This document shows positions 18,741-37,594 of a DNA stretch of 58,401 bases, in pieces. This stretch comes from an uncultured Jannaschia sp. Its GTDB lineage: Bacteria > Pseudomonadota > Alphaproteobacteria > Rhodobacterales > Rhodobacteraceae. The stretch spans positions 1-58,401 of the forward strand of contig CANLTZ010000022.1 in NCBI GenBank assembly GCA_947494145.1, in the 5' to 3' direction. Made by a program: the position numbers and the translations under genes. The number at the start of each line of letters is the position of its first letter. Position 1 is the first letter of the stretch. The notes below the pieces were generated by a model. It saw only the letters and a program-made list of their open reading frames with translations, had not been told where the DNA came from and ran no database searches.

Positions 18741-18775
18741 CCCTGCGCAACGCGACGGATGGCGAAACGGCGGGG

Positions 18776-18838: not shown

Positions 18839-18860
18839 CGTAAGGGTGGGGAAAGGTGGC
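18839..18860 (+). promoter_or_regulatory. T3SS operator box D (weaker match)
   Basis: GTAAG (18840-18844) and GAAAG (18851-18855) with 11-bp spacing, then GTGGC. It lies 66 bp upstream of the HlyD-like gene and just after a terminator. The second half-site deviates by one base from boxes B and C. Confidence 0.45.
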
Positions 18861-18921
18861 GCGAGCATGGTTGGGGCGCGCCCATGACCGACGCGGGCAC
18901 CGATTTCGAAGGAGAAATGAG

Positions 18922-21330: not shown

Positions 21331-21351
21331 TCGCCCCCGCGACCGGAAAGG

Positions 21352-21377
21352 AACGGGCCCGCTTCGGCGGGCCCGTT
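21352..21377 (+). terminator. Strong terminator after the HlyD-like gene
   Basis: An 11-bp perfect stem, AACGGGCCCGC (21352-21362) and its complement (21367-21377), with a TTCG tetraloop, then TTTCG. It ends the 18922 unit before operator box B. Confidence 0.85.
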
Positions 21378-21426
21378 TCGTCTGACGCGCCAAGCGGTCT
21401 GGCCAAAAATAGCCATCGTCCCGGGC

Positions 21427-21447
21427 CGTAAGGTCTGCGTAAGCGGC
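21427..21447 (+). promoter_or_regulatory. T3SS operator box B
   Basis: Two perfect GTAAG half-sites (21428-21432 and 21439-21443) 11 bp apart, followed by CGGC as in box A. It lies between a terminator and the SctK-SctQ-SctV operon, about 180 bp before the chosen SctK start. Confidence 0.65.
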
Positions 21448-21621
21448 GCTGCCTAGCGTTGCCTCACGACCCACCAGACCCGATCCGAAAACGAGAGCCA
21501 ACAGGACCTGCCAAGCGCAGCCCGTATGCCCCACGCCGCGATGGAGAGGCCGGGGCAGGGAGGTGGCCCGAGACGGACGGAAACCCCGGTTGGGATCGAT
21601 GAGACGAGGAGCCGGACCCCC

Positions 21622-23276: not shown

Positions 23277-23297
23277 CCGACGAAAGAGGAGCCCGAG

Positions 23298-23501
23298 ATG
23301 AGCGAAACAGCCGTCACCGAGACCACCGCGTCCAACCCGGTCGAGACGAGTGAAGGGACCAGCGACGAGGAGAAGGAGGCCGCGCTGGTCGAGGCCTTCG
23401 AGATGGGGCTGCTCAACACAATGCTGGGCAATTCGCAGGTCGACCGCGCCATCCAGAGCGAGGCGCGCTCACAATACCAGCAGCTTCAGTCGGGCAGCTG
23501 A
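23298..23501 (+). CDS. Small acidic helical protein, possible needle-like early substrate
   Basis: A 67-residue protein beginning MSETAVTETT, with a Ser/Thr/Glu-rich, likely flexible N-terminus and a helical C-terminal half (EAALVEAFEMGLLNTMLGNS, then YQQLQ). It resembles the 69-residue protein at 25235 in length, N-terminus (MS-acidic-T-x-V-T-E) and layout, and the two flank the 537-residue protein. A length near 70-80 and secretion without signal peptide would fit an SctF needle or similar subunit, but the SctF signature is not evident. AGAGGAG precedes the ATG. Confidence 0.6.
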   Translation: MSETAVTETTASNPVETSEGTSDEEKEAALVEAFEMGLLNTMLGNSQVDRAIQSEARSQYQQLQSGS

Positions 23502-23552
23502 CGCCCGCCGGGCCGACGCGGCACGCATATTCCAGATGAAAGGACAGGATCA

Positions 23553-25166
23553 ATGACACTCGACGTGAACTCAGCCTCCAGCGGGACGGGCATCGCCACG
23601 TCCGGCGAAGGCGAGAACAGGACGACCTACGAGATCAACAAGGACTTCGCCGAAGAGTTCGACAACACGGTCGAACGCAGCATCGATGTGCTGCGAGACG
23701 CAGGCGCAAGCTACGATGTGGGTAGCGAGGCCTACGACCGCATCGACGGCGTGATCGACGATCTGGGGGATGTCACGATCGACTTCCACGGCAGCAATTC
23801 CGCCGGGCTGGACGCGAACATGAACCGCTATTTCAACGCGGTGGAAAACCAGTTGGGCGCGATCCAGGGCGACGCGCTGAACGGTGGCGCGAACACCGAC
23901 GATGCGCTGGCGCTGGTGTCTTCGGTTGAGGCGCTTCTGAGCCAGATCACCGATGCCGCGCGCGCGGACCCCGAAAGTGATGAGACCGGCGACGGCGGCA
24001 GCGGCGTGTCGACGGACGAGACCTACGACCTGGCAGATGTCTCGGACACGCTGAGCGAAGCCAGGGACGCGGACGCCCCCGCCGACAAAGCCAGCCTGCT
24101 TGGCAGCGCAATCGACGCGCTGATCGAGAAGCTGACGGGCGGAGGCACAGGAGAAGCACCGGACAATGGTGGGTCGGGTGCTTCTCCGACCGATCCCGAT
24201 ACCGGCGGGGACATCGCCGCGCCGCCGCCCCCGCCGGCCCCCCCGCAGATCGAGACCGAGAGTTATTCGGGCGACGCGCTGATGGGGAAGGTCTATGCCG
24301 AGGGCGGCGGCGGGATCACATATGACGACAGCGACGGCGGCCTTGGCATCGATGGTGGCGAGGACGATGAGATCGACGGTGGCGAAAAGCTGATCTTCGA
24401 GGCTGGCGAGACGGTTCAGGGCGGCGAGGTCGTCTTCGAGGACCTTCACGGCGAGTCCGGGTCGCGGGGTACGATCAACGTCATGAAGGATGGCGAAGTC
24501 GTCGATACGATCAAGGTCAACGGCGACCTGGACGGCCAGCAGGCCGTGCGCATCGACCAGGAATTCGACAGCCTGGAATTCTTCGTCGAAGGCGGCAGCG
24601 ATATCCCGGACGGTGATGGCTTCGCCGGTGGGCTGCAGCAAGCGGCCTATCTGGCTGGCTCACCCGAGGCGGATAGCAGCTTTGCCATCAGTTCGATCTC
24701 GGTCGACCGGAAGGTCGAGGGGACGGCGCCAGCGCCCGACAGTGGCACGCCCGGCGAGGTGCCGAACGGGTCGGACCCGGTGGACATGGACGTCGATACG
24801 CTGGTCGCGTTGCTTCAGACGCTGTCCGGCGTGTCCGACAGAATCCTTGGCGAAGATGCTGGGATGACGGCGGAATATATCCCGCCCGGCCTTGAGCTTT
24901 CCGACGATCAGCGCTCCGCGCTTCTCGATCAGCTCAACGACGTGATGGAACCGATTGTCGCCGCGCTGGAGGGCGACACCGTGGGCGAGCCCGAGATCAC
25001 CAGGCAGGAGCTGTCCGACGCCCTGTCCGGGCTGCGCGAACTGGTCGGCGACGTCCAGGCGGAAGCCGGTGACGACGCGCTTGGCGGTAAGGCCGAGACC
25101 CTCGATCTGCTGATCGGCGTAGTCGAGACCGTGATCGCGGCGCTGGACGGCGAGCAGCAGACCTAA
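23553..25166 (+). CDS. Large acidic hypothetical protein, candidate T3SS tip/translocator or effector
   Basis: A 537-residue, very acidic protein without signal peptide. Residues 1-200 are helical (YEINKDFAEEFDNTVERSID, then NRYFNAVENQLGAIQGD). A Gly/Pro-rich linker follows (about 205-232, with PPPPPAPP), then a beta-rich domain about 235-390 (EKLIFEAGETVQGGEVVFED; GTINVMKDGEVVDTIKVNGD), which looks like a jelly-roll or carbohydrate-binding fold. The C-terminal helical region is about 410-530 (DTLVALLQTLSGVSDRILGE). I do not recognise the family. Its place between two small paralogous proteins within the T3SS operon suggests an exported structural or effector role. AAAGGA precedes the ATG. 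Confidence 0.65.
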   Translation: MTLDVNSASSGTGIATSGEGENRTTYEINKDFAEEFDNTVERSIDVLRDAGASYDVGSEAYDRIDGVIDDLGDVTIDFHGSNSAGLDANMNRYFNAVENQLGAIQGDALNGGANTDDALALVSSVEALLSQITDAARADPESDETGDGGSGVSTDETYDLADVSDTLSEARDADAPADKASLLGSAIDALIEKLTGGGTGEAPDNGGSGASPTDPDTGGDIAAPPPPPAPPQIETESYSGDALMGKVYAEGGGGITYDDSDGGLGIDGGEDDEIDGGEKLIFEAGETVQGGEVVFEDLHGESGSRGTINVMKDGEVVDTIKVNGDLDGQQAVRIDQEFDSLEFFVEGGSDIPDGDGFAGGLQQAAYLAGSPEADSSFAISSISVDRKVEGTAPAPDSGTPGEVPNGSDPVDMDVDTLVALLQTLSGVSDRILGEDAGMTAEYIPPGLELSDDQRSALLDQLNDVMEPIVAALEGDTVGEPEITRQELSDALSGLRELVGDVQAEAGDDALGGKAETLDLLIGVVETVIAALDGEQQT

Positions 25167-25234
25167 ACCTGGCCGTTGCGGCCCCAGCGTCGCAGCGATC
25201 CCACAATACAAAACCCAATGTAAGGACCAACACA

Positions 25235-25444
25235 ATGAGCGATACGATCGTTACGGAACCGCTTGCCCCCGAGACCGTCACCGACAACGATACCAGCGGC
25301 GACGACGGCAGCTTCGACGCCGCCCTGGCGGAGTTCAAGGCCCAGAACGAGGAGGCGCAGATGCGGAACCTCGAAATGATGGGCGTCCAGGTCGAAGAGG
25401 GCACGGCCCTGAAAGCGGCTGGCCAGCAGGTCAACCCGAAGTAA
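25235..25444 (+). CDS. Small acidic helical protein, paralogue of the 23298 protein
   Basis: A 69-residue protein beginning MSDTIVTEPL, acidic and disordered in the first 25 residues, then helical (FDAALAEFKAQNEEAQMRNL). It shares start, length and layout with the 67-residue protein at 23298. Possibly a needle or inner-rod-like substrate; not established. AAGGA lies 10 bp upstream of the ATG. A hairpin follows it. Confidence 0.6.
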   Translation: MSDTIVTEPLAPETVTDNDTSGDDGSFDAALAEFKAQNEEAQMRNLEMMGVQVEEGTALKAAGQQVNPK

Positions 25445-25454
25445 AGCCGACCCT

Positions 25455-25485
25455 CGCACGGTCCCGCCACGACCGGGGCCGTGCG
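25455..25485 (+). terminator. Hairpin between the small acidic gene and sctD
   Basis: CGCACGG(T)CCC (25455-25465) pairs with GGG(G)CCGTGCG (25475-25485). No T-run follows at once, so it could attenuate transcription or protect the upstream mRNA rather than end transcription fully. Confidence 0.5.
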
Positions 25486-25555
25486 CCTTCCCTGTTCCAC
25501 CATTCCGTGCCTCTGCCGTATTTCCGGCCCGAGGCCCGTCCTTCGAGGCCTTGCC

Positions 25556-26518
25556 ATGACCCGCCATCCCATCCTGCATATCCGGTCCGGTCTGCATCGT
25601 GGCGCGCGCGCCGCGCTGGAGCACGGCACCGAGGTCACTTTGGGCCATGCCGACGGGTGCGATCTTGTGCTTGCCGACACCACGTTGGCCGCGAAGCACC
25701 TGTCGCTGCGCGCCGAAGGGCGCCATCTGGTCGTCACCGCCCACGATGCGGCGGTCGAGGTGCCGGGCGCGGGCCGGGTCGAGCCTGGCTTCCGCGCGCG
25801 GTTGCGGCGCGACACCGATCTACAGGTCGGTGACGTCGTGCTGCACGCTCAGATGCCGCCGACCCCCGTCTCGGCTGCGGGCGCGGGCGTCGCTTTGGCA
25901 GCGGTCGCCGTCATGGGTGCCGCCGCGATCTTCGCCATCCCGGACATGCGCGCCGCGCCGGTCCCCGTGCAATCATCCGAGTTGTCGCTGCCCCCCGAGG
26001 CCCCCGCAGGTCTGGGACCGTCCGAACCCGGGCCCCCCGAGGCGACGTCCACGACCCCCCCCGTGGATCGAGACATGGTCGCCGCCGAGATCGAGACCCG
26101 GCTGGCCGATATCGGCTTCGATCATCTCGATTTCGATGCGGGGCATGAGACCTTCGCGCTGGCGGGGCGCGTGCCCGCCGACCAGCGCGACGTCTTCCAG
26201 CGGTTCCAGGCGTGGTTCGATGAGACCCATCCCGGCCTGGTCATGCGCACCGCGGGCGTGACCTTCCCGCTTCACGCCGACCCCGAGGTTCAGCCGCCCG
26301 CCATCGAATCCGTCTGGACCATGGGGCAACCCTACATCGTTATCGGTGGGCGCCGGTATTACAGCGGCGACAAGGTGCCCAACGGCTGGCGTCTCGATGG
26401 GATCGAGGATGACCGTGCCGTGTTCAGCGACGGAGGCGCGGTCTATCGTGTCGCGCTTGGCGAAACGCCGGGCGAGACGGTCACGCCCGACCCCGACACG
26501 CAGCTTGCCGCGCGATGA
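25556..26518 (+). CDS. sctD: SctD (T3SS inner-membrane ring protein)
   Basis: A 320-residue protein with the SctD layout: a cytosolic FHA domain (about 1-95: PILHIRSGLHRGARAALEHG; GHADGCDLVLAD), one membrane segment (about 103-123: GVALAAVAVMGAAAIFAIP) and a periplasmic part with BON-like subdomains (about 170-290: VAAEIETRLADIGFDHLDFD; GQPYIVIGGRRYYSGDKV). SctD forms the inner-membrane ring with SctJ and anchors the sorting platform. The start at 25556 leaves the FHA domain complete. The last 4 bases overlap the next gene. Confidence 0.82.
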   Translation: MTRHPILHIRSGLHRGARAALEHGTEVTLGHADGCDLVLADTTLAAKHLSLRAEGRHLVVTAHDAAVEVPGAGRVEPGFRARLRRDTDLQVGDVVLHAQMPPTPVSAAGAGVALAAVAVMGAAAIFAIPDMRAAPVPVQSSELSLPPEAPAGLGPSEPGPPEATSTTPPVDRDMVAAEIETRLADIGFDHLDFDAGHETFALAGRVPADQRDVFQRFQAWFDETHPGLVMRTAGVTFPLHADPEVQPPAIESVWTMGQPYIVIGGRRYYSGDKVPNGWRLDGIEDDRAVFSDGGAVYRVALGETPGETVTPDPDTQLAAR

Positions 26519-26886
26519 GCGCCGCCGCCCCCGAACGCGTGCCCGGCCCCTCGGTCGATCCGCTCGATCGTCCGAGGGACACGCGGCTGAGCCATGTCGC
26601 CGCGCGCGAAGCCGCGGCCTTCGAGGCGTTGCTGCGCGCGCGCCAGGCCGAGCGGGACGCGGGCCTTGCCACGCCCGAGATCGGCCGCGCCGCCGCAGCC
26701 AGCCCGGTGGCCGAAACCCGGCTGTCGCTGGGGATGATGCGCCTGACGCTGAGCGGCCTGATCGCGCGGCTGGAGGCGATGCCCGAGCCGTCGCGCGAGA
26801 CGCGGGCCGGTCTGTGGGCGCTGCGCGCCGAGGCGCGCAAGCTGGCCGTGCTGGACGGCTATATCAACGGCCTGATCCGGGGGTGA
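26515..26886 (+). CDS. YscX/SctX-like T3SS protein
   Basis: A 123-residue protein. Its C-terminal half (about 70-123: RLSLGMMRLTLSGLIARLEA; ARKLAVLDGYINGLIRG) is helical, and the length equals YscX of Yersinia (122). The gene is followed by a TPR protein of YscY size and by SctV, which is the Ysc-family order yscX-yscY-sctV. YscX and YscY bind each other and SctV and are needed for export of early substrates. Sequence similarity alone is too weak to name it; the order is the main evidence. Confidence 0.5.
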   Translation: MSAAAPERVPGPSVDPLDRPRDTRLSHVAAREAAAFEALLRARQAERDAGLATPEIGRAAAASPVAETRLSLGMMRLTLSGLIARLEAMPEPSRETRAGLWALRAEARKLAVLDGYINGLIRG

Positions 26887-26889
26887 TTC

Positions 26890-27249
26890 ATGACCGACGC
26901 CGAGCGCGACGTCATCCTGTTCCTGGCCGAGCTTTACCTGCGTCTGGGCCGGCCCAACCATGCCATGCGGCTGCTCGCCCCCCTGCGCGACCTGGATCCC
27001 GATGGCCTGCCGCTTATCCGCCTGACGCTGCGCGCCCATGTGGCCCTGGGCCAGCATGAGGCGGCGCTGGCCTGCGTGGACCGACTGGTGGAGCATGAAT
27101 TCTCACCCTCTGAACTGGCCTTCGCCCTGGCCATGCAGGCCCGCGCCCTTGCTGGGCTGGGCCGCGTCGCGGCATCGCGCGGGGCCTGGGCCGATTGCGT
27201 CGCGCAATGCCGCCGCGCGGGGCTCGATGTGATGGAATACGCGCAATGA
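26890..27249 (+). CDS. YscY/SctY-like TPR protein of the T3SS
   Basis: A 119-residue protein made of about three TPR helix pairs (ILFLAELYLRLGRPNHAMRL; IRLTLRAHVALGQHEAALAC; ALAMQARALAGLGRVAASRG). T3SS TPR proteins of this size are YscY (partner of YscX and SctV) or YscG (needle chaperone). It lies 3 bp after the YscX-like gene and overlaps SctV by 4 bases, so YscY is the better fit. Confidence 0.65.
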   Translation: MTDAERDVILFLAELYLRLGRPNHAMRLLAPLRDLDPDGLPLIRLTLRAHVALGQHEAALACVDRLVEHEFSPSELAFALAMQARALAGLGRVAASRGAWADCVAQCRRAGLDVMEYAQ

Positions 27250-29363
27250 AGGCGCTGGCCGCCCGTCTGACCGGCGCCCGCGACCTGGCCATCGGTCTGC
27301 TGCTGTTCGTCGTCGTGCTGCTGATGATCCTGCCGATGCCCACGCTGCTGGTGGACATGCTGATCGGTGTCAATTTCGGCATTGCTGTCCTGCTGTTGAT
27401 GACGGGGATCTACATCACCACGCCGCTGGCGCTGTCCTCCCTGCCCGCGATCATCCTGATTTCGACCATCTTCCGGCTGGCGTTGTCGATCACGACCACG
27501 CGCCTGATCCTGGCCGAAGCCGATGCGGGCGCCATCGTGGAGACCTTCGGGACCGTCGTCGTCTCGGGCAACATCGTGGTGGGGATGGTGGTGTTCTTCA
27601 TCATCACCATCGTGCAGTTCATCGTCATCGCCAAAGGCGCCGAACGGATCGCCGAGGTGGGCGCGCGTTTCACGCTGGATGCGCTGCCGGGCAAGCAGAT
27701 GGCCATCGACGCCGAGCTGCGCAACGGCGATATCGACAACGAAGAAGCGGGCCGCAGGCGGGCCACGCTGGAGCGCGAGAGCCAGTTCTACGGCGCGATG
27801 GACGGCGCGATGAAGTTCGTCAAAGGCGACACGATCGCGGGCCTGATTATCATCTTCGTCAACCTGCTGGGCGGGCTGGCCGTCGGGTTGCTGCAACGTG
27901 GGATGCCCCTGGGCGAAGCGGCGACGGTCTATTCGCTGCTGACGGTGGGGGATGCGCTGATTTCGCAGATCCCGGCCTTGCTGATGGGCATGACGGCCGC
28001 CGTGATCGTCACGCGGGTCAAGGGCGGCGAAAGCAAGAATCTCGGCTCCGACATCATCGGTCAGGTCATGGCCGACCGCCGGGCGGTGCAATTGGCCGGT
28101 GCGGCGCTGATCGTGATGGGCCTGTTGCCCGGCTTCCCCACGGCGGTTCTTGCGCCTTTGGGCCTGCTCTTCGTCGGCATCGGATCCTTCGTCACGATCA
28201 TGCGCTACCTTCGCCCCGAACAGTTGGACAAGACGGCCGAGGTGACGCCGGAGGTCGAACCCGAGGTCGCGGAGCTGCTGCCCGCGGACGACGCGCAGGT
28301 GGTCATCGAGATGGCCGCTGACCTGTTCGAACTGGCGACGCCCGCGGAATGGGCGGCAGAGGTGTCGGCGCTGGCATTGCGGGTGGCCGATGAGAGCGGG
28401 CTCGACCCCTGCCTGCTGACCGTGCAGCAGGTTGCGACCGACGAGACGGGGCAGTTTCGTGTCCTGGTCGATGGCTCGCCCGTGCTGTGGTCGCAAGTCG
28501 ACCATGGCCAGTTGGTGCTGCCCGACGTGTCGGAGGTTCTGGCCATGCACGACATCCCGTTCGAGGCTCGCGAGACGACGCTCTGGACGCGACGCCTGGT
28601 CGTGGACCGCGATCAGACCGAGGTGCTGGCCGAGTTGGGCCTGCGCTTCGACGGCCCCCGCGCCGCGATGCTGCACGAAGCCGAGGCGGCGCTGCGGCGC
28701 AACCTGTCGGGCCTTCTGGGCTTGCAGGAGACGCGCGAGATCCTGTCCGCGCTGGAGGCAAGCTATCCGGTCCTCGTGGGGGAGGTGATGCGCATCCTGT
28801 CCATCCAGAAGATTTCGGAGGTGCTGCGGCGGTTGGTGTCGGAAGGCGTGTCGATTGCCAACAAACGGCGCATCTTCGAGACGCTGATGGAATGGGGCCA
28901 GGTCGATCCGAACCCGCTGGCGCTGACGGAATATTGCCGCATCGGCTTGACCCGGCAGATTTGCGAGCAAGTGGCCCGCGACCGCACCATCACCGCCATC
29001 GTCGTCAAGCGCGAGACGGAGGACATGCTGCGCGCGGGCCTGAAGGAGACGAATATCGGGACCTATCTGGTCCTCAACGAGGGCCAGACCGCCGAGCTTC
29101 TGAGCGCTGTCCGCAAGCAGGTGGACCTGCTGTCGCCCAAGGGCGTGCGGCCCATCTTGATGACGTCGATGGACTTGCGGCGGCATCTGAAGGTGTTCCT
29201 GACGCGCAACGGCCTGGAGGTCGACGTCATGTCCTTCCAGGAACTCAACGACGACTACCAGGTCGTGCCCTGCAGTACGCTGACGCTGGGGTCCGCACAG
29301 GTCGCGGCGCGCCGCGCCGAGCGCCGCGCCAAGACAGACGTTTCCGCCGATGACGCCGTTTAA
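27246..29363 (+). CDS. sctV: SctV (T3SS export gate protein, FlhA/LcrD family)
   Basis: A 705-residue protein with about eight N-terminal membrane helices (residues 12-320) and a large cytosolic domain (about 350-690) that forms the nonameric export ring. FHIPEP-family motifs are clear: LLILPMPTLLVDMLIGVN-like start, TGIYITTPLALSSLPAIILI, STIFRLALSITTTRLIL, GARFTLDALPGKQMAIDAEL and GDIDNEEAGRRR. The cytosolic SVLTGDP-like region reads LPDVSEVLAMH and later RRLVSEGVSIANKRRIFETL. The ATG at 27246 overlaps the TPR gene. It is full length and appears intact. Confidence 0.95.
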   Translation: MKALAARLTGARDLAIGLLLFVVVLLMILPMPTLLVDMLIGVNFGIAVLLLMTGIYITTPLALSSLPAIILISTIFRLALSITTTRLILAEADAGAIVETFGTVVVSGNIVVGMVVFFIITIVQFIVIAKGAERIAEVGARFTLDALPGKQMAIDAELRNGDIDNEEAGRRRATLERESQFYGAMDGAMKFVKGDTIAGLIIIFVNLLGGLAVGLLQRGMPLGEAATVYSLLTVGDALISQIPALLMGMTAAVIVTRVKGGESKNLGSDIIGQVMADRRAVQLAGAALIVMGLLPGFPTAVLAPLGLLFVGIGSFVTIMRYLRPEQLDKTAEVTPEVEPEVAELLPADDAQVVIEMAADLFELATPAEWAAEVSALALRVADESGLDPCLLTVQQVATDETGQFRVLVDGSPVLWSQVDHGQLVLPDVSEVLAMHDIPFEARETTLWTRRLVVDRDQTEVLAELGLRFDGPRAAMLHEAEAALRRNLSGLLGLQETREILSALEASYPVLVGEVMRILSIQKISEVLRRLVSEGVSIANKRRIFETLMEWGQVDPNPLALTEYCRIGLTRQICEQVARDRTITAIVVKRETEDMLRAGLKETNIGTYLVLNEGQTAELLSAVRKQVDLLSPKGVRPILMTSMDLRRHLKVFLTRNGLEVDVMSFQELNDDYQVVPCSTLTLGSAQVAARRAERRAKTDVSADDAV

Positions 29364-29387
29364 TCCACCAACCGAAGGGTCCATCCC

Positions 29388-29741
29388 ATGAAACCTATCT
29401 GCCTTTTCGCCATTCTGGCCGCCGCCGCGATGCCCAGCCTTGCCGCGGCTGATGACAGCCTGATCTCGCTGCGCAGCAGCGATGGCACGCTCGTGCGGAT
29501 GGAGGATGATGCGTCCAGCGTCCTGATCGCCGATCCCGCGATTGCGGATGTCCAGCTTGTCTCGGACCGGTCGATTTTCGTCTTTGGGCGCGTTCCCGGC
29601 TCCACCCGGTTATTCGTTCTGGGGGAAAACGACGAGATCATGCTGGAACGCCGTGTGATCGTGTCGCGGACGCTCAACGAAGTTCAGCAAGCCCTGACCG
29701 ATGAGCAGGTCGCGGCGCAAGCCGCGGAAAACGAGGGCTGA
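29388..29741 (+). CDS. Short exported protein with a secretin/CpaC-type N-terminal domain
   Basis: A 117-residue protein with signal peptide (MKPICLFAILAAAAMPSLAA) and one domain (about 27-100: LVRMEDDASSVLIADPAIAD; SDRSIFVFGRVPGSTRLFVL; RRVIVSRTLNEVQQAL), which is the N-terminal domain found before secretins such as RhcC2 and CpaC. The pore domain that should follow is missing: the gene stops and a bidirectional terminator comes next. It may replace the periplasmic part of a split secretin or be a truncated rhcC2. Confidence 0.7.
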   Translation: MKPICLFAILAAAAMPSLAAADDSLISLRSSDGTLVRMEDDASSVLIADPAIADVQLVSDRSIFVFGRVPGSTRLFVLGENDEIMLERRVIVSRTLNEVQQALTDEQVAAQAAENEG

Positions 29742-29772
29742 ACGCAGCCGATATGTCGGGTCGTTCTTTGCG

Positions 29773-29801
29773 GGCGCCGATCCTAAAAGGGGGTCGGCGC
29801 C
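29773..29801. terminator. Bidirectional terminator between the two T3SS arms
   Basis: GGCGCCGA (29773-29780) pairs with TCGGCGCC (29794-29801). It lies between the convergent ends of the 29388 gene and sctU. Confidence 0.7.
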
Positions 29802-29830
29802 GTCTTCGCGATTGAGGATGTCGGAACCGC

Positions 29831-30868
29831 TCAGCCCGCTGCCTGGATCATCCGCGCCGTGTCGGAATACTCGCTGGGCAAGATCGGGCTGCCCGGGCGC
29901 GCGGCCTTCAGGATGCGCCGCGCGAGGCTGGCATCCTGCATCATCGGAATCCCAAGTTCGGCCGCCTGATCGACCAGCGCGGCGAATTTGGCTGGGTCGC
30001 GGACCTTGGCGACGACGACGGGGATCCCGTATTCCGCCTTGACGTAGCGCAGGGCCACGGCCTCATCTGCCCCCGCGATGATAAGCGTGGCGCGGGGCAG
30101 GCCCAAGCGCGACACCTTGGCGTTCGCCGCCTCCTTGCGCAAGCGGCGCAGGGCGGAGCGGATTTCGGGCGAGCCGTTCATGTCCTTCATCTCATTCTTC
30201 ATTTCGGTCTTGGTCATGTTCTGGTCGCGCTGAAACAGCCAGGCCTGCACCGGCAGGTCGATCACCGCGAAAAGGACGGACACGGCGACGACGACGCCCA
30301 CGACCATGGCGGCCAGGCGCGCGGACACCTCGATCAGGCAGCCAAGCCCGCAGCTTGGCGCATAGAGAAGCGCGCCGCCCCAGCCCCACAGCACCAGCGC
30401 GATGCCGGCACCGGCCAGCAGCATCCGCGTCAACGCCTTGGCGAACTCGATCAGGGCCCGCGTGCCGAACATCCGCTTGAAACCCTGCACCGGGCTCAAC
30501 TTGGACAGTTTGGGCGTCACCGGCGCGAGGCTGAACACCATCCCGCCGTTGAGCACGATTGACCCGATCACCAACACGCCGAAGATGATGGCGAAGAGCG
30601 TCCCGAAGATGCGCAGCCCCGTGGCGACCGATTGGGCGATGATCTCGTCATAGGATTGGGTGGGCTCTGTCAGCAGCGAGAAGGCGAGGCCCGCGCTGTC
30701 CTGGAAGTGCCGCGCGATGTCGCCCGCCGCCGACCAGAGGAACAGGATTGCGCCAAGCGTCACCAGAAGCAGCCGGGTGTCGCGCTGCTGCGCAATCTGG
30801 CCGTCCGCCCGGGCTTTGCGAAGTTTGCGGGCGGATGGCTTGAGGGACTTTTCTTCGGAGCCGCTCAT
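29831..30868 (-). CDS. sctU: SctU (T3SS specificity-switch protein) lacking the NPTH motif
   Basis: A 345-residue FlhB/YscU-family protein: cytosolic N-terminus (PSARKLRKARADGQIAQQRD), four membrane helices (about 30-215), then the cytosolic domain with MKNEMKDMNGSPEIRSALRR. In all typical members the sequence before A-V-A-L is N-P-T-H, where the protein cleaves itself to switch substrates. Here the strand reads LIIAGADEAVALRY, so AGADE (about 265-269) stands in for the NPTH region and Asn, Pro and His are absent. The rest (GIPVVVAKVRD, LGIPMMQDASLARRIL) is normal and the frame is unbroken. It overlaps sctT by 4 bases. Confidence 0.92.
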   Translation of the reverse strand: MSGSEEKSLKPSARKLRKARADGQIAQQRDTRLLLVTLGAILFLWSAAGDIARHFQDSAGLAFSLLTEPTQSYDEIIAQSVATGLRIFGTLFAIIFGVLVIGSIVLNGGMVFSLAPVTPKLSKLSPVQGFKRMFGTRALIEFAKALTRMLLAGAGIALVLWGWGGALLYAPSCGLGCLIEVSARLAAMVVGVVVAVSVLFAVIDLPVQAWLFQRDQNMTKTEMKNEMKDMNGSPEIRSALRRLRKEAANAKVSRLGLPRATLIIAGADEAVALRYVKAEYGIPVVVAKVRDPAKFAALVDQAAELGIPMMQDASLARRILKAARPGSPILPSEYSDTARMIQAAG

Positions 30869-31683
30869 CGGTCGCCAGCCAGGATCTCGAACAGGCGCCC
30901 TACGCTGGCGGCACCGGCGAGATCGTCGCGCATATAGCCGACGAGCAGCTGGATGTAGATCAGAGCGACGAAGGCGAAGAGAAGGTTTTTCACCAGTGGC
31001 AGCAGGCCGCTGATGTCGATTGAGCCTGTCATACGCCCGAGCGCCATGGTGCCGATGTCGCTGAGCAGGAAAAGGATCACGAAGGGCGCGGCCAGAAGCA
31101 GACCCGCCAGCATCACCTGCGCGATGAGCCCGCCGACATGGGCGATGGCGTCGAGGCCCGCGCCGACGGGCAGGAATTCGTCCACGCCCCAGGCGGCATA
31201 GCTGCCGTAAAGGGTCGAGATCGTCAGCGCCAACCCGCCTTCGGCCACGAAGATCGTGATTGCGGCCAGACCCAGGAGCGAGGACATCACCGAAGCCTGT
31301 TCGCCGGTTGCGTTGTCCGACAGGCCCGACGCCCCGGCGATGGACCGCTGCGTGTCGATCATCTCACCCCCGGCCTGGATGGCCCAGATCGGGATGCCGA
31401 AAAACAGCCCGATCAGAAAGCCAACGGCAAATTCCTTGACCATCAGCCCCGCCATTACCCACAGCCGGTCGATGGGCAGCGTGTCGATCCGGGGTTGCAG
31501 CCCGCCCATGATCGGCAGGGCCAAGGCCAGCGCGATCACCGCCAGGATCGCGCGCCCCAACTCGGTACGTTTGAAAACCGGCAGGATCGCGATCAAACCC
31601 ATCATCCGTGCGGAGGATAGGCCAAGATAGACCATCCACTGCTTCACGTCGCGCATGGCCGGGAAGACGTCCAGCAGCTCCAT
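30865..31683 (-). CDS. sctT: SctT (T3SS export apparatus)
   Basis: A 272-residue FliR/SctT-family membrane protein with about six to eight helices (for example MMGLIAILPVFKRTELGRAI; FAVGFLIGLFFGIPIWAIQA; GGEMIDTQRSIAGASG; LLAAPFVILFLLSDIGTMAL). With SctR and SctS it forms the helical export gate in the centre of the basal body. The GE-x-IDxQR motif is typical of the family. It lies in the conserved order R-S-T-U. Confidence 0.93.
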   Translation of the reverse strand: MELLDVFPAMRDVKQWMVYLGLSSARMMGLIAILPVFKRTELGRAILAVIALALALPIMGGLQPRIDTLPIDRLWVMAGLMVKEFAVGFLIGLFFGIPIWAIQAGGEMIDTQRSIAGASGLSDNATGEQASVMSSLLGLAAITIFVAEGGLALTISTLYGSYAAWGVDEFLPVGAGLDAIAHVGGLIAQVMLAGLLLAAPFVILFLLSDIGTMALGRMTGSIDISGLLPLVKNLLFAFVALIYIQLLVGYMRDDLAGAASVGRLFEILAGDR

Positions 31684-31949
31684 CAGCGCACGAGGCGCGG
31701 GAAATCGGTATACATCGCCTCGGCATAGTTGGTCAGCGGGCCGAACAGCGCACCCGACAGCGCGGCGAACGTTCCCACGACGACGAAGAGCTTCACCGCC
31801 TGTGGCAGCGTCTGGTCCTGGATCTGGGTCGCCGCCTGTAGGACCGCGATCAGGAACCCGGCAATGGTGGCGGCCGCCAGCGGGGGCAGGGCCATGGTCA
31901 GGAAGACGGAAAGCCCGGTTCCCAGGGAATAGGCGATGTCGGATGTCAT
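31683..31949 (-). CDS. sctS: SctS (T3SS export apparatus)
   Basis: An 88-residue FliQ/SctS protein with two membrane helices (LSVFLTMALPPLAAATIAGF; LFVVVGTFAALSGALFGPL). The family motif QDQTLP followed by P-K-x-like LPQAVKLF is present. It is joined to sctT without gap (the same base ends one and starts the other) and is 17 bp from sctR. Confidence 0.93.
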   Translation of the reverse strand: MTSDIAYSLGTGLSVFLTMALPPLAAATIAGFLIAVLQAATQIQDQTLPQAVKLFVVVGTFAALSGALFGPLTNYAEAMYTDFPRLVR

Positions 31950-31966
31950 GGCGGATCCTTTCGCGG

Positions 31967-32629
31967 TCAGGCCACAGAGTAGGTCATTACGAGACCCTCG
32001 ATCAGCCGCGTCCAGCCGCTGATCGCGACGAACAGGAACAGCTTCATCGGGGTCGAGATCACGGTGGGCGTCACCATGGACATGCCCATCGCCATCAACA
32101 CGCTGGTCACCACCAGGTCGACGACGATCAAAGGGAGGTAGAGCAGCAAGCCGATTTCGAAGGCGCGCTGCAACTCGCTGACCAGGAAGGATGGGATCAG
32201 CACGGAAAGGTCGGTTTCCTGGAACGGCTGCGCGGTGCCCTCGGGCCAGACCTGCTGGCTGGCCAACAGGAAGAATTGGCGCTGCTCTGCGGTTGTGAAG
32301 CGCATCAGAAAATCGCGGATCGGCTCGCGCCCCCGCTCGAAGGCGGCGACCCAGTCGTTGAAATCTGCCGGATCGATGGGCGCGACCATTACCGCTTCGG
32401 TCACCTGCGTCAGAACGGGCGCTGCGATGAAAGCCGTCAGCGCCAGCGCGATGCCGTAAAGCACCAGGCCCGGCGGCGTCTGCTGGATGCCCAGAGCGTT
32501 GCGCACAATGAAAAGGACGACCGCGATCTTCACGAACGACGTCGTGGTCACCACGAAGAACGTCGTCAGCCCCAGCCCCAGCACCAGGCCCAGGATGCCG
32601 ACCAGGGCAGGGGTGTCGTCGCCGACCAT
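31967..32629 (-). CDS. sctR: SctR (T3SS export apparatus)
   Basis: A 220-residue FliP/SctR membrane protein with four helices: LVLGLGLTTFFVVTTTSFVK, then IVRNALGIQQTPPGLVLYGIA, a periplasmic loop, and IPSFLVSELQRAFEIGLLLY followed by LPLIVVDLVVTSVLMAMGMS and P-x-x-ISxPxKLFLF. These are the diagnostic FliP-family signatures. It is the first component of the R-S-T-U export gate. Confidence 0.95.
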   Translation of the reverse strand: MVGDDTPALVGILGLVLGLGLTTFFVVTTTSFVKIAVVLFIVRNALGIQQTPPGLVLYGIALALTAFIAAPVLTQVTEAVMVAPIDPADFNDWVAAFERGREPIRDFLMRFTTAEQRQFFLLASQQVWPEGTAQPFQETDLSVLIPSFLVSELQRAFEIGLLLYLPLIVVDLVVTSVLMAMGMSMVTPTVISTPMKLFLFVAISGWTRLIEGLVMTYSVA

Positions 32630-32632
32630 GCC

Positions 32633-32932
32633 CTAGCCCCCGTCGCCGATGCTCGCGATTCGCAGGGCCAGGCCGTCGGTCAGCGCAACCAGTTCGGCGC
32701 GGGCGAAGGGATGTCCCTCGACTTGTAGGTCCGCGACAACCGCTTGGGCAGACAGCCCCAGCGGCAGAAGGCTGCCGCGATCCAGTGCTTGGAACGTGTC
32801 CCAGGGGATCTGTCCTGCGTCGATGACCAGGTCGATCTGGACGGGTGGCTCGGGCTGCAGAAACATGGCGTCGTCGAGGGCATCGCCCTCGGTCAGCGTG
32901 TTGGATTGGGTCTTGGTCGGGGCATCCTTCAT
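32633..32932 (-). CDS. Short SpoA-domain protein (separately encoded SctQ-C/FliN-like)
   Basis: A 99-residue protein with a single SpoA domain (about 30-95: VQIDLVIDAGQIPWDTFQAL; GLSAQAVVADLQVEGHPFAR; LVALTDGLALRIASIG). In several T3SS an internal start in sctQ yields such a C-terminal fragment, which dimerises and binds full-length SctQ. Here a separate gene lies between sctO and sctR, at the place sctQ itself takes in Yersinia, while the long SctQ is in the other arm. Confidence 0.78.
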   Translation of the reverse strand: MKDAPTKTQSNTLTEGDALDDAMFLQPEPPVQIDLVIDAGQIPWDTFQALDRGSLLPLGLSAQAVVADLQVEGHPFARAELVALTDGLALRIASIGDGG

Positions 32933-32933
32933 C

Positions 32934-33416
32934 TCATTCTCTCCGGCTGGCATGGACGGCTTGGCCGTCGGCGCGTTCGTCGTCCTGAGTGATTTCGCGG
33001 CGGCGGCGGTCGCGGGCGGCGATGCGGTCGCATTCCCCGGCCCAGCCGTCGCGCCGGGCCGACAGGCGTCGGAATTCCGCGGCGGCCGCGTCCCGGGCGG
33101 TTTGGGCGGTGTCCAGCGCAGCGGCGCAGGCGCGGCGGTCCGCCTCGGCGTCCTCTCGGGCGAGGGCCAACTGGTCAATCCGATGCGACAGCGCGGCGAT
33201 GGCCCCGGCGCTGGTGGTTCGGCCCACCATGTCTTCCAGGCCCTGGCTGGCCGCGAAGCCATGGGCCGCGCGGGCTTCGCGCGCCGTGCTTTCGGCCCGG
33301 CGCAGAGCGCGGGCCGCCTGCGCGACCTCGGTCTCGGTCCGGGAGAGTGCCGCGCGCGCGGCGTCACACCGCAGCCTGCGCAGGTCCATCAGACGGGCCA
33401 TCTGCGTGGGCGTCAT
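32934..33416 (-). CDS. SctO-like T3SS stalk protein (FliJ family)
   Basis: A 160-residue, Ala/Arg/Glu-rich protein that is almost entirely an antiparallel coiled coil (for example LSRTETEVAQAARALRRAES; AEADRRACAAALDTAQTARD). SctO/YscO/FliJ stalks sit in the centre of the ATPase hexamer and contact SctV. Sequence is poorly conserved in the family; position directly after sctN (4-base overlap), length and coiled coil support the call. Confidence 0.78.
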   Translation of the reverse strand: MTPTQMARLMDLRRLRCDAARAALSRTETEVAQAARALRRAESTAREARAAHGFAASQGLEDMVGRTTSAGAIAALSHRIDQLALAREDAEADRRACAAALDTAQTARDAAAAEFRRLSARRDGWAGECDRIAARDRRRREITQDDERADGQAVHASRRE

Positions 33417-34723
33417 GACACAGCCTCCGCCAGCTGAGCCCGCATCGCGTCGAACGAGGTCACGTCATCCATGTCCTGACGCAGAAAGCTGCGGATGCGG
33501 TCGGCGGCGGCAAGCGCCGCATCGGCCAGCGGGTCGCTTCCGCTTTTGTATTCGCCGATCTGCACCAGAAGCTCGATCTCCGCCAGTTTGGCGGTCAACT
33601 CGACCAGCCGGGCGGCCTGCGCGCGATGGTCGGGATCGGCGACCCGGGTCATCACCCGGCTGCGGCTGCGCGTGATGTCGATGGCGGGGTAATGCGATCG
33701 GGCGGCCAGGTCCGCCGATAGGACGACATGGCCGTCGAGGATGCCGCGCACGTCTTCAGCCACCGGATCGCCGGTGCCGTCGCCTTCGACCAGCACGGTA
33801 TAGAATGCGGTGATCGAGCCGGTATCGGCGCAGCCCGCGCGCTCCAGCAGGCAGGGCAGCCCGGCCAGGGCCGAGGGGGGATAGCCGCGCCGGGCGGGCA
33901 GGGCGCCCGCCGCCAGCGCGAGGTCCCGACAGGCGCGGGCGAAACGGGTGATGCTGTCAACGACCAACAGGACGTCCTCGCCCCGGTCGCGGAAGCTTTC
34001 GGCAATGGCGGTGGCGGCCAGGGCGGCCGACGCCCGTTCAATCGCCGGACGGTCGGAGGTGGCGACCACGACGACGCTGCGGACCAGGCCATCTGCGCCC
34101 AGCGTGTCTTCGACGAATTCGCGCACTTCGCGCCCGCGTTCGCCCACCAGCGCGATCACGCAGACCCCCGCCGCCGCGCCGCGCACCAGGGCCGCCAGCA
34201 GGGTCGACTTGCCGCCGCCCGGTTCACCGAAGATGCCGATGCGTTGACCTTTGCCGCAGGTCAGCACGCCGTCGATGGCGCGCAGGCCCACAGGGAACGG
34301 CGCGGAGATCGGTGCGCGGCGCATTGCAGGCGGCGGCGCGGCGCTGAGCGCGCGATGTTCGACGTCGCCCGCGATGCGGCCGCGCCCGTCGATGGGCGCG
34401 CCGGTCGGGTCGACGATCCGGCCCAGCAGGCCCGGACCGACGGGAATCGTGCGGGGGCGCCCGGTGGGCCGCACCTCGGTCAGCGGTGACAGGCCGTCCA
34501 GCCCGTCCGACGGCGCCAGCAGGGCGGAGCCGTTGCGGAAGCCGATCACGTCGGCCTGCATCCGCCGCCCCGAGACGGGATCGTGGATGTCGCAAAGCTC
34601 ACCGATCACCGCGCGGGACAGCTGTGCTTCGATCAGCGCGTCCTGCGCGCGGTGCAAGCGGCCCGCGGGCGCGTAGGCGTCCAGTTGGGCCAGCCGCCGG
34701 GTCAGCGTTGCGGGATCAGCCAT
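33413..34723 (-). CDS. sctN: SctN (T3SS ATPase)
   Basis: A 436-residue ATPase of the FliI/YscN family. The Walker A motif is GEPGGGKSTLLAAL (about 165-175), Walker B is EDVLLVVDSITRFARA with the usual D-S-I-T, and GERGREVREF and the PARRGYPPSALAGLPCLLERAG stretch (split here at GYPPS) are family-specific. It unfolds and hands substrates to the export gate. ATG at 34723 is preferred to GTG at 34732 because a purine-rich GGGGG lies in front. It overlaps the end of sctL. Confidence 0.94.
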   Translation of the reverse strand: MADPATLTRRLAQLDAYAPAGRLHRAQDALIEAQLSRAVIGELCDIHDPVSGRRMQADVIGFRNGSALLAPSDGLDGLSPLTEVRPTGRPRTIPVGPGLLGRIVDPTGAPIDGRGRIAGDVEHRALSAAPPPAMRRAPISAPFPVGLRAIDGVLTCGKGQRIGIFGEPGGGKSTLLAALVRGAAAGVCVIALVGERGREVREFVEDTLGADGLVRSVVVVATSDRPAIERASAALAATAIAESFRDRGEDVLLVVDSITRFARACRDLALAAGALPARRGYPPSALAGLPCLLERAGCADTGSITAFYTVLVEGDGTGDPVAEDVRGILDGHVVLSADLAARSHYPAIDITRSRSRVMTRVADPDHRAQAARLVELTAKLAEIELLVQIGEYKSGSDPLADAALAAADRIRSFLRQDMDDVTSFDAMRAQLAEAVS

Positions 34724-35342
34724 CGTCGGCACCCCCCGGCGCGGTCAGCGCGCGCAGAAGCTGGTCGCGATGCCGGTCGAGCGAGATGCAGATCACGCCG
34801 CCTTCGCCGCGTAATTCGACCTCGCCCGCGCCCAGGGTCGCGTCCTCGATCCGTTCCAGCGGCCAGTCGGCGCCGTGCCCGGCCAGTGCTGCCAAATCGT
34901 TCGGTGTGGCCGCCAGAACCGTCGCGGGCGCGCCGGACGCCTGGGCGAGTGCTTCGGACACGGCGGCCACGATCAGCGCGTCCCACGAAGCTGCGCCGTA
35001 GAAACGCCGAAGCGCGTCCGCCAGCAGGGTTTCGAGTTGCTGGGCCTGTTCGGCCCGCAGCGCCTCGATCCGGGCGGCGAGGTCGATGCGCTCACGCATC
35101 AGTATCTCGGTGGCCGCATCGCGGCCCTCTTGGTGGCCTTCCTCATGGGCGCGGCGGAAGCGGGCGCGCGCGCCCTCTGTCCAGCGCTCTGCCTGATTGC
35201 GGGCCTGGTCGAGTAGGGTGGCCGCGTCTGCAATTTGGCCCAGGTCAGCCCGCGTCAGGATCGTCGGGGCCAGCCCGTCGAGCTTGGCTTGCAATTCGGG
35301 CGGCACGTCGCGCTTTGGCAACATGTCGGCGAGCACGGTCAT
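34716..35342 (-). CDS. sctL: SctL (T3SS ATPase regulator/stator)
   Basis: A 208-residue FliH/SctL protein. Helical first half with alternating charged residues (about 45-110: ARARFRRAHEEGHQEGRDAA; IDLAARIEALRAEQAQQLET) and a C-terminal V-ATPase-E-like domain (GEVELRGEGGVICISLDRH). It binds SctN and the SctQ/SctK platform. The start at 35342 (MTVLADMLPKRD) overlaps the end of sctJ; the longer open frame upstream is sctJ read in another frame. Confidence 0.85.
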   Translation of the reverse strand: MTVLADMLPKRDVPPELQAKLDGLAPTILTRADLGQIADAATLLDQARNQAERWTEGARARFRRAHEEGHQEGRDAATEILMRERIDLAARIEALRAEQAQQLETLLADALRRFYGAASWDALIVAAVSEALAQASGAPATVLAATPNDLAALAGHGADWPLERIEDATLGAGEVELRGEGGVICISLDRHRDQLLRALTAPGGADDG

Positions 35343-36064
35343 TTCGCCCGCTCCACGATGATATCCGAGCGACCGCGCCGGAGCCAGGCGATGCCACCCG
35401 CGGAGCCGCCCATCAAGAGCAGGACCAGCAGCCAAGGCGCCATGGCCGGCAGGGACGTGCGCGGCGCCGGCGGTGTGGATGGGGCCAGCGGCCGATTCTG
35501 CACGGGAATGAAAACGACCGAGACATTGCCGTAATCCAACCCCTCGATGCTGTTGGCGACCATCATCTTGATCTGCGCCAAGAGGGCGGGTGCCTGTGCG
35601 TCCTCGGTATGCCGAATCACGACGGACGCCGAAGAGGGCGGCGTGTCGCGCGCCAGCGGATCGGAGGTGGGCAGGACGACATGGGTGCGCGCTGACAACA
35701 CGCCATCGATTTCGGAGATGGTGCGCGAAAGCTCCTCGCTCATGGCGAAGATGAAGCGCGCGCGTTCTTCCGTCTGGGACGACACGAAGCCCTTCGACTC
35801 GAACACCTCGCCGAGATTTGAGTAATTCTTCCGCGGGTAGCCTTCGGCGCGCAGGATTTCGACGGCCATGGCGAAGTCGGCGTCGCCCACGCGCACCGTC
35901 ACCAGACCGTCCTTCTGCATCTCTCGGTCGGCGGACAGCCCGGACAGGCGAAGGACGGAAACGATCTCGTTGGCTTCATGTTCTTGGAGACCTGTATGCA
36001 GGTCGGTCTTGCACGCTGTCAGAATCGCCAGGGCGAGGATCGCGACCAGGAAACGATGGGCCAT
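35339..36064 (-). CDS. sctJ: SctJ (T3SS inner-ring lipoprotein)
   Basis: A 241-residue lipoprotein with lipobox LTAC (Cys at 18), two ring-building domains (VSVLRLSGLSADREMQKDGL with VRV; FAMAVEILRAEGYPRKNY; RTISEIDGVLSARTHVVLP) and a C-terminal membrane helix (about 208-228: APWLLVLLLMGGSAGGIAWL). It forms the inner-membrane ring with SctD. The YP(R/K) and SEIDGV(L/V)xAR(T/V)HVVLP motifs are diagnostic. Confidence 0.94.
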   Translation of the reverse strand: MAHRFLVAILALAILTACKTDLHTGLQEHEANEIVSVLRLSGLSADREMQKDGLVTVRVGDADFAMAVEILRAEGYPRKNYSNLGEVFESKGFVSSQTEERARFIFAMSEELSRTISEIDGVLSARTHVVLPTSDPLARDTPPSSASVVIRHTEDAQAPALLAQIKMMVANSIEGLDYGNVSVVFIPVQNRPLAPSTPPAPRTSLPAMAPWLLVLLLMGGSAGGIAWLRRGRSDIIVERAK

Positions 36065-36065
36065 G

Positions 36066-36476
36066 TCAGTTCCCCGACATCAGCTTGGTCATCGACCCCG
36101 CCATGCTGGACCCGGCCGACGAGATGATCGTCACCTCGATCGCGTGATTCGTCGCGGACTTGAAGTTGTGCATCGCCTGATCGAATGTCGGGGCCGACAC
36201 AGTTTCAGACCCAATCCCGAAGACGGCTTGCGGCCTGTCCTCTACCGGCGAAACGGTGCGGACAGATTGCGGGTTTTGGCCGTCGAATTGCAGTCCGATA
36301 TTGGATGATGCATCTTCCAATCTATTAAGGACGTTCTGCACGACTTCGGATTGATTCGGTGCCTCGACCGGAATTGCCGGATCGATATCGACAGGAATTT
36401 CTTCCGGCTGAATATCGCCTGACGGAATATCGGACGGGGACGCGACCGGAGTGATCGCGGCGGGATCAAGAGACAT
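36066..36476 (-). CDS. sctI: SctI-like T3SS inner-rod protein
   Basis: A 136-residue protein with an acidic, disordered first half (Pro/Ile/Asp-rich) and a C-terminal helical part (about 95-136: APTFDQAMHNFKSATNHAIE; SAGSSMAGSMTKLMSGN). SctI proteins end in this way, with a helix that polymerises into the inner rod below the needle. The gene is first in the left arm, one base before sctJ, as in many T3SS operons. It is longer than usual because of the N-terminal extension. Confidence 0.72.
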   Translation of the reverse strand: MSLDPAAITPVASPSDIPSGDIQPEEIPVDIDPAIPVEAPNQSEVVQNVLNRLEDASSNIGLQFDGQNPQSVRTVSPVEDRPQAVFGIGSETVSAPTFDQAMHNFKSATNHAIEVTIISSAGSSMAGSMTKLMSGN

Positions 36477-36904: not shown

Positions 36905-37594
36905 ATGCGACTTTTGATTGTTGAGGATGAACAGGTATTCGCGGAGCCTGTTAGCCGTGTCTTGAGAAAGGCGGGCTATACGGTCGATATCGTCGATTGC
37001 CTGGATGATGCGAATTCCGCGATTGCGGTCTGCGATTATAATCTGATCCTTCTCGACCGGCATCTCCCGGACGGAGACGGGCTGGACGTGCTGCGCGCGC
37101 TTCGGCGAGCCAAGAGCGGGATTTCCGTCATTCTGATGTCTGCCGAGATGCGCAGCGTGCACGAGAGGATCGTCGGCCTGGAAGAGGGGGCCGATGACTA
37201 CATGACCAAACCGCTCGACATCTCCGAGCTGTTGGCGCGGGTTCGCGCGCTTCTGCGGCGACCGCAGGAACTGGCGCGCAGCGAGGTCTTGGTCGGAAAC
37301 CTGTGCTTGAACACAGAGACGAGGTCGGTTTCGATCGACGGCGCGCCGGTCTCCATCAGCCGGCGGGAGTTGGGCCTGCTTGAGCATCTTGTGCGGGCCG
37401 AGGGCCGCGTGGTTCTGCGCGACCAGATCGAACAGCGTACCTACGGCTTCGACGACGAGATTTCGATCAATGCAATCGAGGTGGCTATCCATCGTCTTCG
37501 TCGGCGGCTTGAACAACACGGTGCCGCTGTTTCCATCCAGACAGTGCGTGGATTGGGCTACATGCTTCACGCACGGGAGATGGCAGATGTTTGA
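36905..37594 (+). CDS. OmpR/PhoB-family response regulator
   Basis: A 229-residue regulator. The receiver domain (1-115) has the acidic pocket E7-D8, phosphoacceptor D51 (LILLDRHLPDGDG), and the K in YMTKPLD. The winged-helix DNA-binding domain (about 125-225) has ISRRELGLLEHLVRAEGRVV, the SINAIEVAIHRLRRRLE recognition region and QTVRGLGYML. It is the best candidate to bind the GTAAG tandem boxes of the T3SS. It overlaps the kinase gene by 8 bases. Confidence 0.93.
   Translation: MRLLIVEDEQVFAEPVSRVLRKAGYTVDIVDCLDDANSAIAVCDYNLILLDRHLPDGDGLDVLRALRRAKSGISVILMSAEMRSVHERIVGLEEGADDYMTKPLDISELLARVRALLRRPQELARSEVLVGNLCLNTETRSVSIDGAPVSISRRELGLLEHLVRAEGRVVLRDQIEQRTYGFDDEISINAIEVAIHRLRRRLEQHGAAVSIQTVRGLGYMLHAREMADV

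Follow-up and report, generated by a model that had tools for sequence, protein, structure and literature searches.

The stretch of DNA analysed here (contig CANLTZ010000022.1 of an uncultured Jannaschia sp., positions 1 to 58,401; the window, at its full length of 58,401 nucleotides) encodes a type III secretion system (T3SS) whose SctU, an export gate and switch protein of the rhizobial RhcU type, has no NPTH autocleavage motif. The loss is a family trait of rhizobial-type (Rhc) T3SSs and is not peculiar to the window system or to the Rhodobacterales. Judging from sequence, we think it probable that this is an Rhc-type T3SS working without SctU autocleavage, without an SctP ruler and without an SctW gatekeeper. 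NPTH has been called strictly or highly conserved in the passages available from a structure paper (PMC2615192) and a recent review (PMC10333785). A literature search, with subscription papers mostly outside it, returned no paper joining RhcU and NPTH; an earlier mention is possible, and as a trait of the Rhc family the loss is apparently undescribed in the literature searched.

The autocleavage site of SctU and its relatives

The SctU of the window is a protein of 345 amino acids (aa) that matches the Bac_export_2 profile (PF01312) from residue 5 to 341 (profile positions 1-332 of 335, 234.6 bits against a cut-off of 24.4, E 2.4e-69). Its score against TIGR01404, the NCBIfam equivalog for SctU, is 220.7 bits and falls short of the cut-off of 358 by 137 bits. 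When aligned with FlhB (...VVITNPEHFAVAL... against ...LIIAG-ADEAVAL... in the window SctU), the protein lacks Asn, Pro and His of the motif, and its loop is one residue shorter; FlhB and YscU proteins read ..VITNPEHFAVAL or ..VVVNPTHYAVAL at the same site. There is no Asn-Pro anywhere in the 345 residues. The initial annotation had placed the loss at 30062..30085 with the frame and flanking motifs intact, and both parts hold: the coordinates are exact, and the open reading frame (ORF) is of full length with a Pfam match over nearly all of it, which rules out a frame or start problem. A sequencing or assembly error concealing NPTH, or a private mutation, can for practical purposes be ruled out, since the motif is also missing from independent relatives and the FlhB-type protein that this genome encodes on contig C7 has VNPTHYAVAL.

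The nearest relatives of the window SctU (P0002-P0004 at 60-61% identity, P0005 and P0006 at 50 and 48%) all lack NPTH; close homologues possessing it were looked for and none was found. The first protein search gave NPxH in 112 of the 120 matches listed, many of them bearing the name FlhB, and none in the remaining eight, which include the window protein. All 15 nearest genome loci (L003-L012 and L040-L044, with L006 and L041 probably from one genome) are without the motif, and SctU is kept in Rhodobacterales relatives at 33-61% identity. From 328 plasmid records matching the window SctU, eight were picked by hand; seven are intact and all seven lack NPTH, namely those of Bosea, Bradyrhizobium barranii, Mesorhizobium amorphae, Sinorhizobium fredii pNGR234b, S. 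fredii CCBAU25509 pSym (L080, where the gene lies beside nopP), R. johnstonii and Paracoccus sanguinis. The match on a Halomonas sp. PA16-9 plasmid (L081, 2001-3022) consists of two overlapping ORFs and is perhaps a broken gene. The Pseudomonas protein P0249 also lacks the motif. NP[TV]H was found in 30 of 30 TIGR01404 loci, these being the best 30 of a much longer match list and including above-cut-off SctU from other Alphaproteobacteria (L048, L051, L054).

We then aligned 401 sequences, comprising profile-matching proteins and locus ORFs with a matched part of at least 280 aa, identical rows being dropped. Asn-Pro stands at the site in 294 (290 as NPxH) and is absent from 107, none of which has Asn at the scissile column; these 107 rows hold near copies, and the window protein is present twice (P0001, L106). 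The Asn-Pro of P0217 (NPEH), picked up by a plain pattern search, was placed away from the site by the alignment. Three SctU/FlhB-like proteins outside the clade (L117, L130, P0291) keep Asn-Pro but have NPTE or NPTQ in place of NPTH. In a tree of SctU built with the loop columns removed (35 NPTH-less representatives at a 55% identity limit and the first 60 of 73 NPTH representatives at 48%), a single branch sets all 35 NPTH-less representatives apart, with one change compared with 28.5 in shuffles. Support is 99 for a 34-row core and only 78 for the whole 35, with L109. That side includes Rhodobacterales, Pseudomonas (P0249) and rhizobial RhcU proteins, so that the clade sought among Rhodobacterales homologues exists and is wider than had been envisaged. 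The SctV tree (20 rows, 11 against 9) separates the two sets with one change and a support of 94. A single origin of the loss is likely.

Within the clade the loop is the least conserved part of the C domain, its mean pairwise identity being 0.12 in NPTH-less representatives compared with 0.72 in those with NPTH, whereas strand 1 (0.41 against 0.51), strand 2 (0.57 against 0.78) and the whole C domain (0.33 against 0.43) differ far less. The seven-column loop holds seven residues in all 294 NPTH proteins but six in 60 and seven in 47 of the 107 NPTH-less proteins, and 98 of the latter have no Asn in it at all. With the flanking strands kept, this low identity and the Asn-less loops look like the loss of a catalytic site rather than its exchange for another. 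A substitute motif (GADE or similar) is ruled out by the mixed letters at the Asn column of the 107 rows (G 26, S 17, D 16, A 15, E 12, H 10, T 6, Q 2, W 2 and one other). An AlphaFold2 model of the window SctU from a 22-row alignment (mean predicted local distance difference test, pLDDT, 82.9; predicted template modelling score 0.54) keeps the hairpin at the site with a pLDDT of 92 over residues 261-270, the predicted strands 262-265 and 270-274 enclosing a four-residue loop.

Residues linked to the switch have also changed. The Arg of the LARxLY helix, a consensus of cleaving homologues (PMC2615192, in the passages available), drops from 285 of 294 NPTH proteins to 23 of the 107, and Gly289 from 291 to 36. 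The Tyr site is Tyr, Phe or His in 276 of the 294, while its commonest residues in the 107 are Ala (22), Phe (20), Leu (14) and Glu (12). This site corresponds to HrcU Y318, YscU Y317 and FlhB Y323, at which Asp suppresses loss of the ruler (PMC3040844). Pro283 is invariant in all 401 rows, and the NPTH-less clade has gained conserved residues of its own at Gly256, Glu279 and Gly326.

SctP and SctW in clusters without NPTH

The SctN-SctR interval holds two genes in all 18 readable NPTH-less clusters (the window, L003-L005, L007-L010, L075, L076, L085, L089, L090, L135-L138, and L006 and L087, which have identical gene order and sizes on contigs of equal length, 95047, and were counted once), and it measures 723-1734 bp. 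Among 12 NPTH loci, seven have three genes there (SctO, SctP, SctQ), and an eighth collinear locus, L096, has SctO and SctQ with a gap bearing a weak PF02120 match. The interval of these eight is 1862-2338 bp and does not overlap the NPTH-less range. Since the two genes in the NPTH-less intervals are sized like SctO and SctQ, SctP is not hidden in a fusion, and only L076 (357 bp) and L136 (156 bp) have uncalled gaps of more than 100 bp. The count leaves out four non-collinear or unreadable NPTH loci (L094, L098, L099, L103), the loci L139-L141 (no SctN recognised) and, from the NPTH-less side, L011/L012 (one genome, L011 having no recognised SctN or SctR), L092 (neither gene recognised), L077-L080 and L082 (stretches of about 5 kb) and L081 (two pieces).

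Profile searches point the same way. PF02120, the C-terminal domain of the ruler, has no match on the window contig; about 3 kb from SctU it matches in five of 11 NPTH genomes and in none of six NPTH-less genomes. All five matches are below the Pfam cut-off, which makes this a weak test of SctP when used alone, and gene order and interval lengths were therefore added. The gatekeeper SctW (PF07201), searched for anywhere in the genome, was found in nine of 11 NPTH genomes and in none of 10 NPTH-less genomes, the window genome having no match. In Table 1 of PMC3574062 the Rhc family has only dashes or blanks under SctP and SctW; the absence of SctP in rhizobia is already known. The empty SctP slot and the absent SctW match strengthen the suggestion, made when the motif was first seen to be missing, that this system has lost the switch.

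Proposed export through an uncleaved SctU, and alternatives

We propose that Asn-Pro autocleavage was abandoned by the SctU of the Rhc family, whose SctP and SctW partners were not found. SctU would not be cleaved in the cell and would remain in one piece, with its membrane part still closing the SctRST gate and its cytosolic domain keeping the closed, uncleaved fold. Such a one-state SctU would let early (pilus or rod) and late (effector) substrates pass without a cleavage-gated change of specificity; gene expression and chaperones would determine the order of export, and with no ruler at all the length of the pilus would not be measured by SctP. The proposal thus predicts Rhc pili without ruler-set length and, in legume symbionts, an export order set elsewhere than at the SctU switch. 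More tentatively, the Rhc family (rhizobia, a Pseudomonas, Rhodobacterales) may have lost autocleavage, SctP and SctW in one ancestral step, in which case none of the three would be essential for export of several classes, and the cytosolic domain of SctU would have another, older job.

Secretion data are available for one member. S. fredii CCBAU25509, whose pSym SctU lacks NPTH, secretes the pilus proteins NopA and NopB together with the effectors NopC, D, I, L and P, while NopX was not detected, according to the passages available from PMC6865838. The initial annotation had offered restriction to one substrate class as a possible consequence of the loss; this does not fit the S. fredii system, and since that system exports both classes, such a restriction across the family is unlikely. 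In Salmonella pathogenicity island 2 (SPI-2), SsaU N262A stopped both a translocon protein and an effector from being exported and raised rod export, and the equivalent change in Yersinia mainly reduced translocon export (PMC6168863), which suggests that a non-cleaving SctU is harmful where the system is built around cleavage. The accessible part of the review cited above (PMC10333785) does not decide whether the switch is triggered by cleavage or whether cleavage simply makes a conformation possible. With a natural family that lacks NPTH and yet exports more than one substrate class, this question can be tested by comparison rather than by mutation.

Several observations weigh against export through an uncleaved SctU as set out above. 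The loss of NPTH is known from reading sequences alone. The SctN tree (26 rows) does not support a single NPTH-less clade, as it requires four changes, at least two of them forced. The losses of NPTH, SctP and SctW share one clade, and thus perhaps reflect a single event, so that their correlation is not statistically independent. SctW had no match in two of the 11 NPTH genomes and a near PF02120 match was missing from six of the 11, which means that profile searches miss real genes. SctP has been described as too variable for similarity analysis (PMC3459982), and a dissimilar ruler encoded at another place in the cluster would therefore escape notice; one NPTH-less interval, that of L076, also has the 357-bp gap without a called gene, perhaps the start of an SctQ called too short. 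The ten best PDB matches of the model, autocleavage-site mutants of YscU, EscU and a Chlamydia homologue, favour the proposal, but their ranking is partly an artefact of deposition, since wild-type domains that have been cleaved are entered as two chains, each matching separately. Finally, the S. fredii secretome says nothing, in the passages available, on the order of export, and in an rhcN::Tn5 mutant treated with genistein, where expression of rhcQ-U was lowered, NopA was still found in the secretome, as the only one of these Nops (PMC6865838).

The main rival, which we hold to be unlikely, is that the switch was kept in altered form, with uncleaved SctU being moved from one conformation to the other by an unrelated lineage-specific ruler or signal. 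Tampakaki (2014, PMC3973906) suggests that dissimilar proteins may fill analogous roles in rhizobia, several genes of the window cluster have no family match, and the three clade-specific conserved residues would suit such a switch. There is also a precedent in Xanthomonas, which supports our main proposal as well: HrcU Y318D reduced cleavage and yet restored late secretion without the SctP homologue HpaC, showing that a change of conformation can open late export when little HrcU is cleaved (PMC3040844). However, the SctP slot holds no candidate ruler, the loop gives no sign of new constraint and the switch-linked residues are relaxed.

Cleavage of SctU at another bond or by another protease, with the same outcome as in NPTH proteins, is less probable again. 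The mutants SsaU N262A and YscU N263A were indeed cut at other places, but in SPI-2 these aberrant cuts failed to restore switching (PMC6168863). Asn-Pro occurs elsewhere in the C domain of 15 of the 107 NPTH-less proteins, 10 of them having it at a shared G-x-P turn (residues 232-234), which precedes the hairpin by about 30 residues; however, an NPTH-bearing FlhB (P0098) has G-N-P at this turn as well, so that a new cleavage site cannot be read from it. The window SctU, moreover, has no Asn-Pro to offer, and Asn is missing from 98 of the 107 loops. That the system is decaying, or exports a single class, is very improbable: the window subclade has no secretin barrel beside the RhcC1-like gene and neither SctP nor SctW was found, but SctR, S, T, U, V, N, L, J and D are all in open frames, SctU is retained among the Rhodobacterales relatives at the identities given above, and the related S. 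fredii system secretes both classes.

The T3SS cluster and its probable place in the Rhc family

The cluster spans approximately 16994 to 36476 (Table 1), with SctJ, L, N, O, a short SctQ, R, S, T and U on the minus strand, and the RhcC1-like SctC fragment, a second SctQ-like protein, SctD, a possible SctX, SctY, SctV and a 117-aa secretin-N-domain protein on the plus strand. Genes were called with a codon-usage script and families assigned from profile matches, several of them below the curated cut-off. The label of the possible SctX follows the SctX-SctY-SctV gene order, which we assume to apply here.

Table 1. Features of the T3SS cluster in the window and the basis of each assignment
Feature	Position	Strand	Basis
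RhcC1-like SctC fragment, N domains only, 223 aa	16994..17665	plus	TIGR02516 positions 7-137/463, E 2.6e-23
Second SctQ-like protein, 354 aa	22212..23276	plus	weak TIGR02551 match, E 0.0026
SctD with rhizobial Y4YQ_C domain	25556..26518	plus	TIGR02500 E 5.1e-18 (below cut-off); PF23893 E 5.8e-12
Possible SctX	26515..26886	plus	only position before SctY-SctV; no family match
SctY-like chaperone	26890..27249	plus	NF052415 E 5.6e-16, below cut-off
SctV	27246..29363	plus	TIGR01399 E 2.1e-219, above cut-off
117-aa protein, secretin/pilus N domain only (RhcC2-like stub, no secretin barrel)	29388..29741	plus	PF13629 E 6.7e-17
SctU (RhcU-type export gate / switch protein), 345 aa, without NPTH	29831..30868	minus	Pfam PF01312
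SctU residues 315-320 LARRIL; helix with consensus LARxLY in cleaving homologues; Tyr site is Leu	29909..29926	minus	alignment
SctU residues 262-269 LIIAGADE; FlhB equivalent ..ITNPEH..	30062..30085	minus	alignment
SctT	30865..31683	minus	TIGR01401 E 3.9e-45, just below cut-off
SctS	31683..31949	minus	TIGR01403 E 7.4e-17, below cut-off
SctR	31967..32629	minus	FliP family E 1.2e-59
SctN-SctR interval, 784 bp, two genes, no gaps, no SctP gene	32633..33416	minus	gene order
Short SctQ C-terminal (SPOA) protein, 99 aa	32633..32932	minus	TIGR02551 E 1.3e-9 (below cut-off); FliMN_C E 2e-7
Probable SctO, 160 aa	32934..33416	minus	position; weak YscO-like match E 0.011, below cut-off
SctN ATPase	33413..34723	minus	ATP-synt_ab E 2.8e-77; T3SS_ATPase_C E 1.8e-21
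SctL	34716..35342	minus	TIGR02499 E 1.9e-14, below cut-off
SctJ	35339..36064	minus	TIGR02544 E 9.9e-63, above cut-off
Possible SctI (inner rod), 136 aa	36066..36476	minus	only position beside SctJ; no family match

The best reading of the cluster is as a Rhodobacterales branch of the Rhc family, because the SctU and SctV trees, the RhcC1-type gene, the Y4YQ_C domain of SctD and the missing SctP and SctW all agree with it; the SctN tree adds no support. In the passages available from PMC3459982, RhcC1 is the T3SS secretin reduced to its N-terminal part and RhcC2 is derived from Tad. The window has the RhcC1 N-domain gene of this split secretin, but no Tad-type RhcC2 secretin was found in the locus, which has only the 117-aa N domain. 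No secretin barrel was found in the window T3SS, and the two secretins of the genome are on other contigs, one in a Tad-like operon and the other in an operon resembling a type II secretion system (both judged by eye from gene order and N-termini). The window T3SS may therefore borrow the Tad secretin. A stub of 113-116 aa is kept in three further genomes (G034, G060, G334; loci L086, L088, L089) whose secretins also lie on other contigs; L075 has a 408-aa and L076 a 472-aa protein, and G192 has a secretin ORF beside SctU.

Apart from its Rhodobacterales branch and the truncated RhcC2, the window system differs from other Rhc T3SSs in having SctQ in two genes, the weakly SctQ-like 354-aa protein and the 99-aa C-terminal SPOA protein at the usual SctQ place. 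A short gene at that place is also present in L003 (84 aa) and L085 (79 aa). The P. syringae T3SS-2 has been placed in the Rhc family (PMC3574062), and Rhc-II/III systems of three Sinorhizobium species were reported to be without known nop and ttsI genes in the passages available from PMC3973906. With autocleaving SctU proteins (YscU, EscU, SpaS, SsaU, HrcU) the window SctU shares the Pfam family, the cytosolic fold and the place in the RSTU order; unlike in their systems, NPTH, a gene in the SctP slot and a match to SctW are missing and the LARxLY helix is relaxed. FlhB is of the same Pfam family, but the window SctU lacks NPTH and sits in a T3SS cluster. In having no Asn-Pro route it resembles the non-cleaving mutants YscU N263A, EscU N262A and SsaU N262A, with YscU and EscU mutants among the best matches of its model; these mutants, however, belong to systems built around cleavage, whereas the window SctU belongs to a natural family. 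Type III systems appear to be less common in alphaproteobacteria according to passages of a paper found in a search on Roseobacter injectisomes, and the same passages are silent on SctU.

Some further genes of the window deserve mention. An 802-aa coiled-coil protein inside the cluster (18922-21330), with weak HlyD/periplasmic-adaptor similarity, no signal peptide by eye and a relative in L089, is possibly a secreted tip or translocator protein. SctD is preceded by acidic proteins of 67 aa (23298-23501), 537 aa (23553-25166) and 69 aa (25235-25444), the latter two with relatives in L004 and L005; profile searches gave no convincing family match for the three, which are candidates for needle or secreted proteins. 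Adjoining the cluster, a response-regulator-like and histidine-kinase-like pair (36905-38270, judged by eye from translations) possibly represents T3SS regulators. A 1226-aa protein on the minus strand (298-3978) has RTX repeats and cadherin-like, lamin-tail and endonuclease/phosphatase domains.
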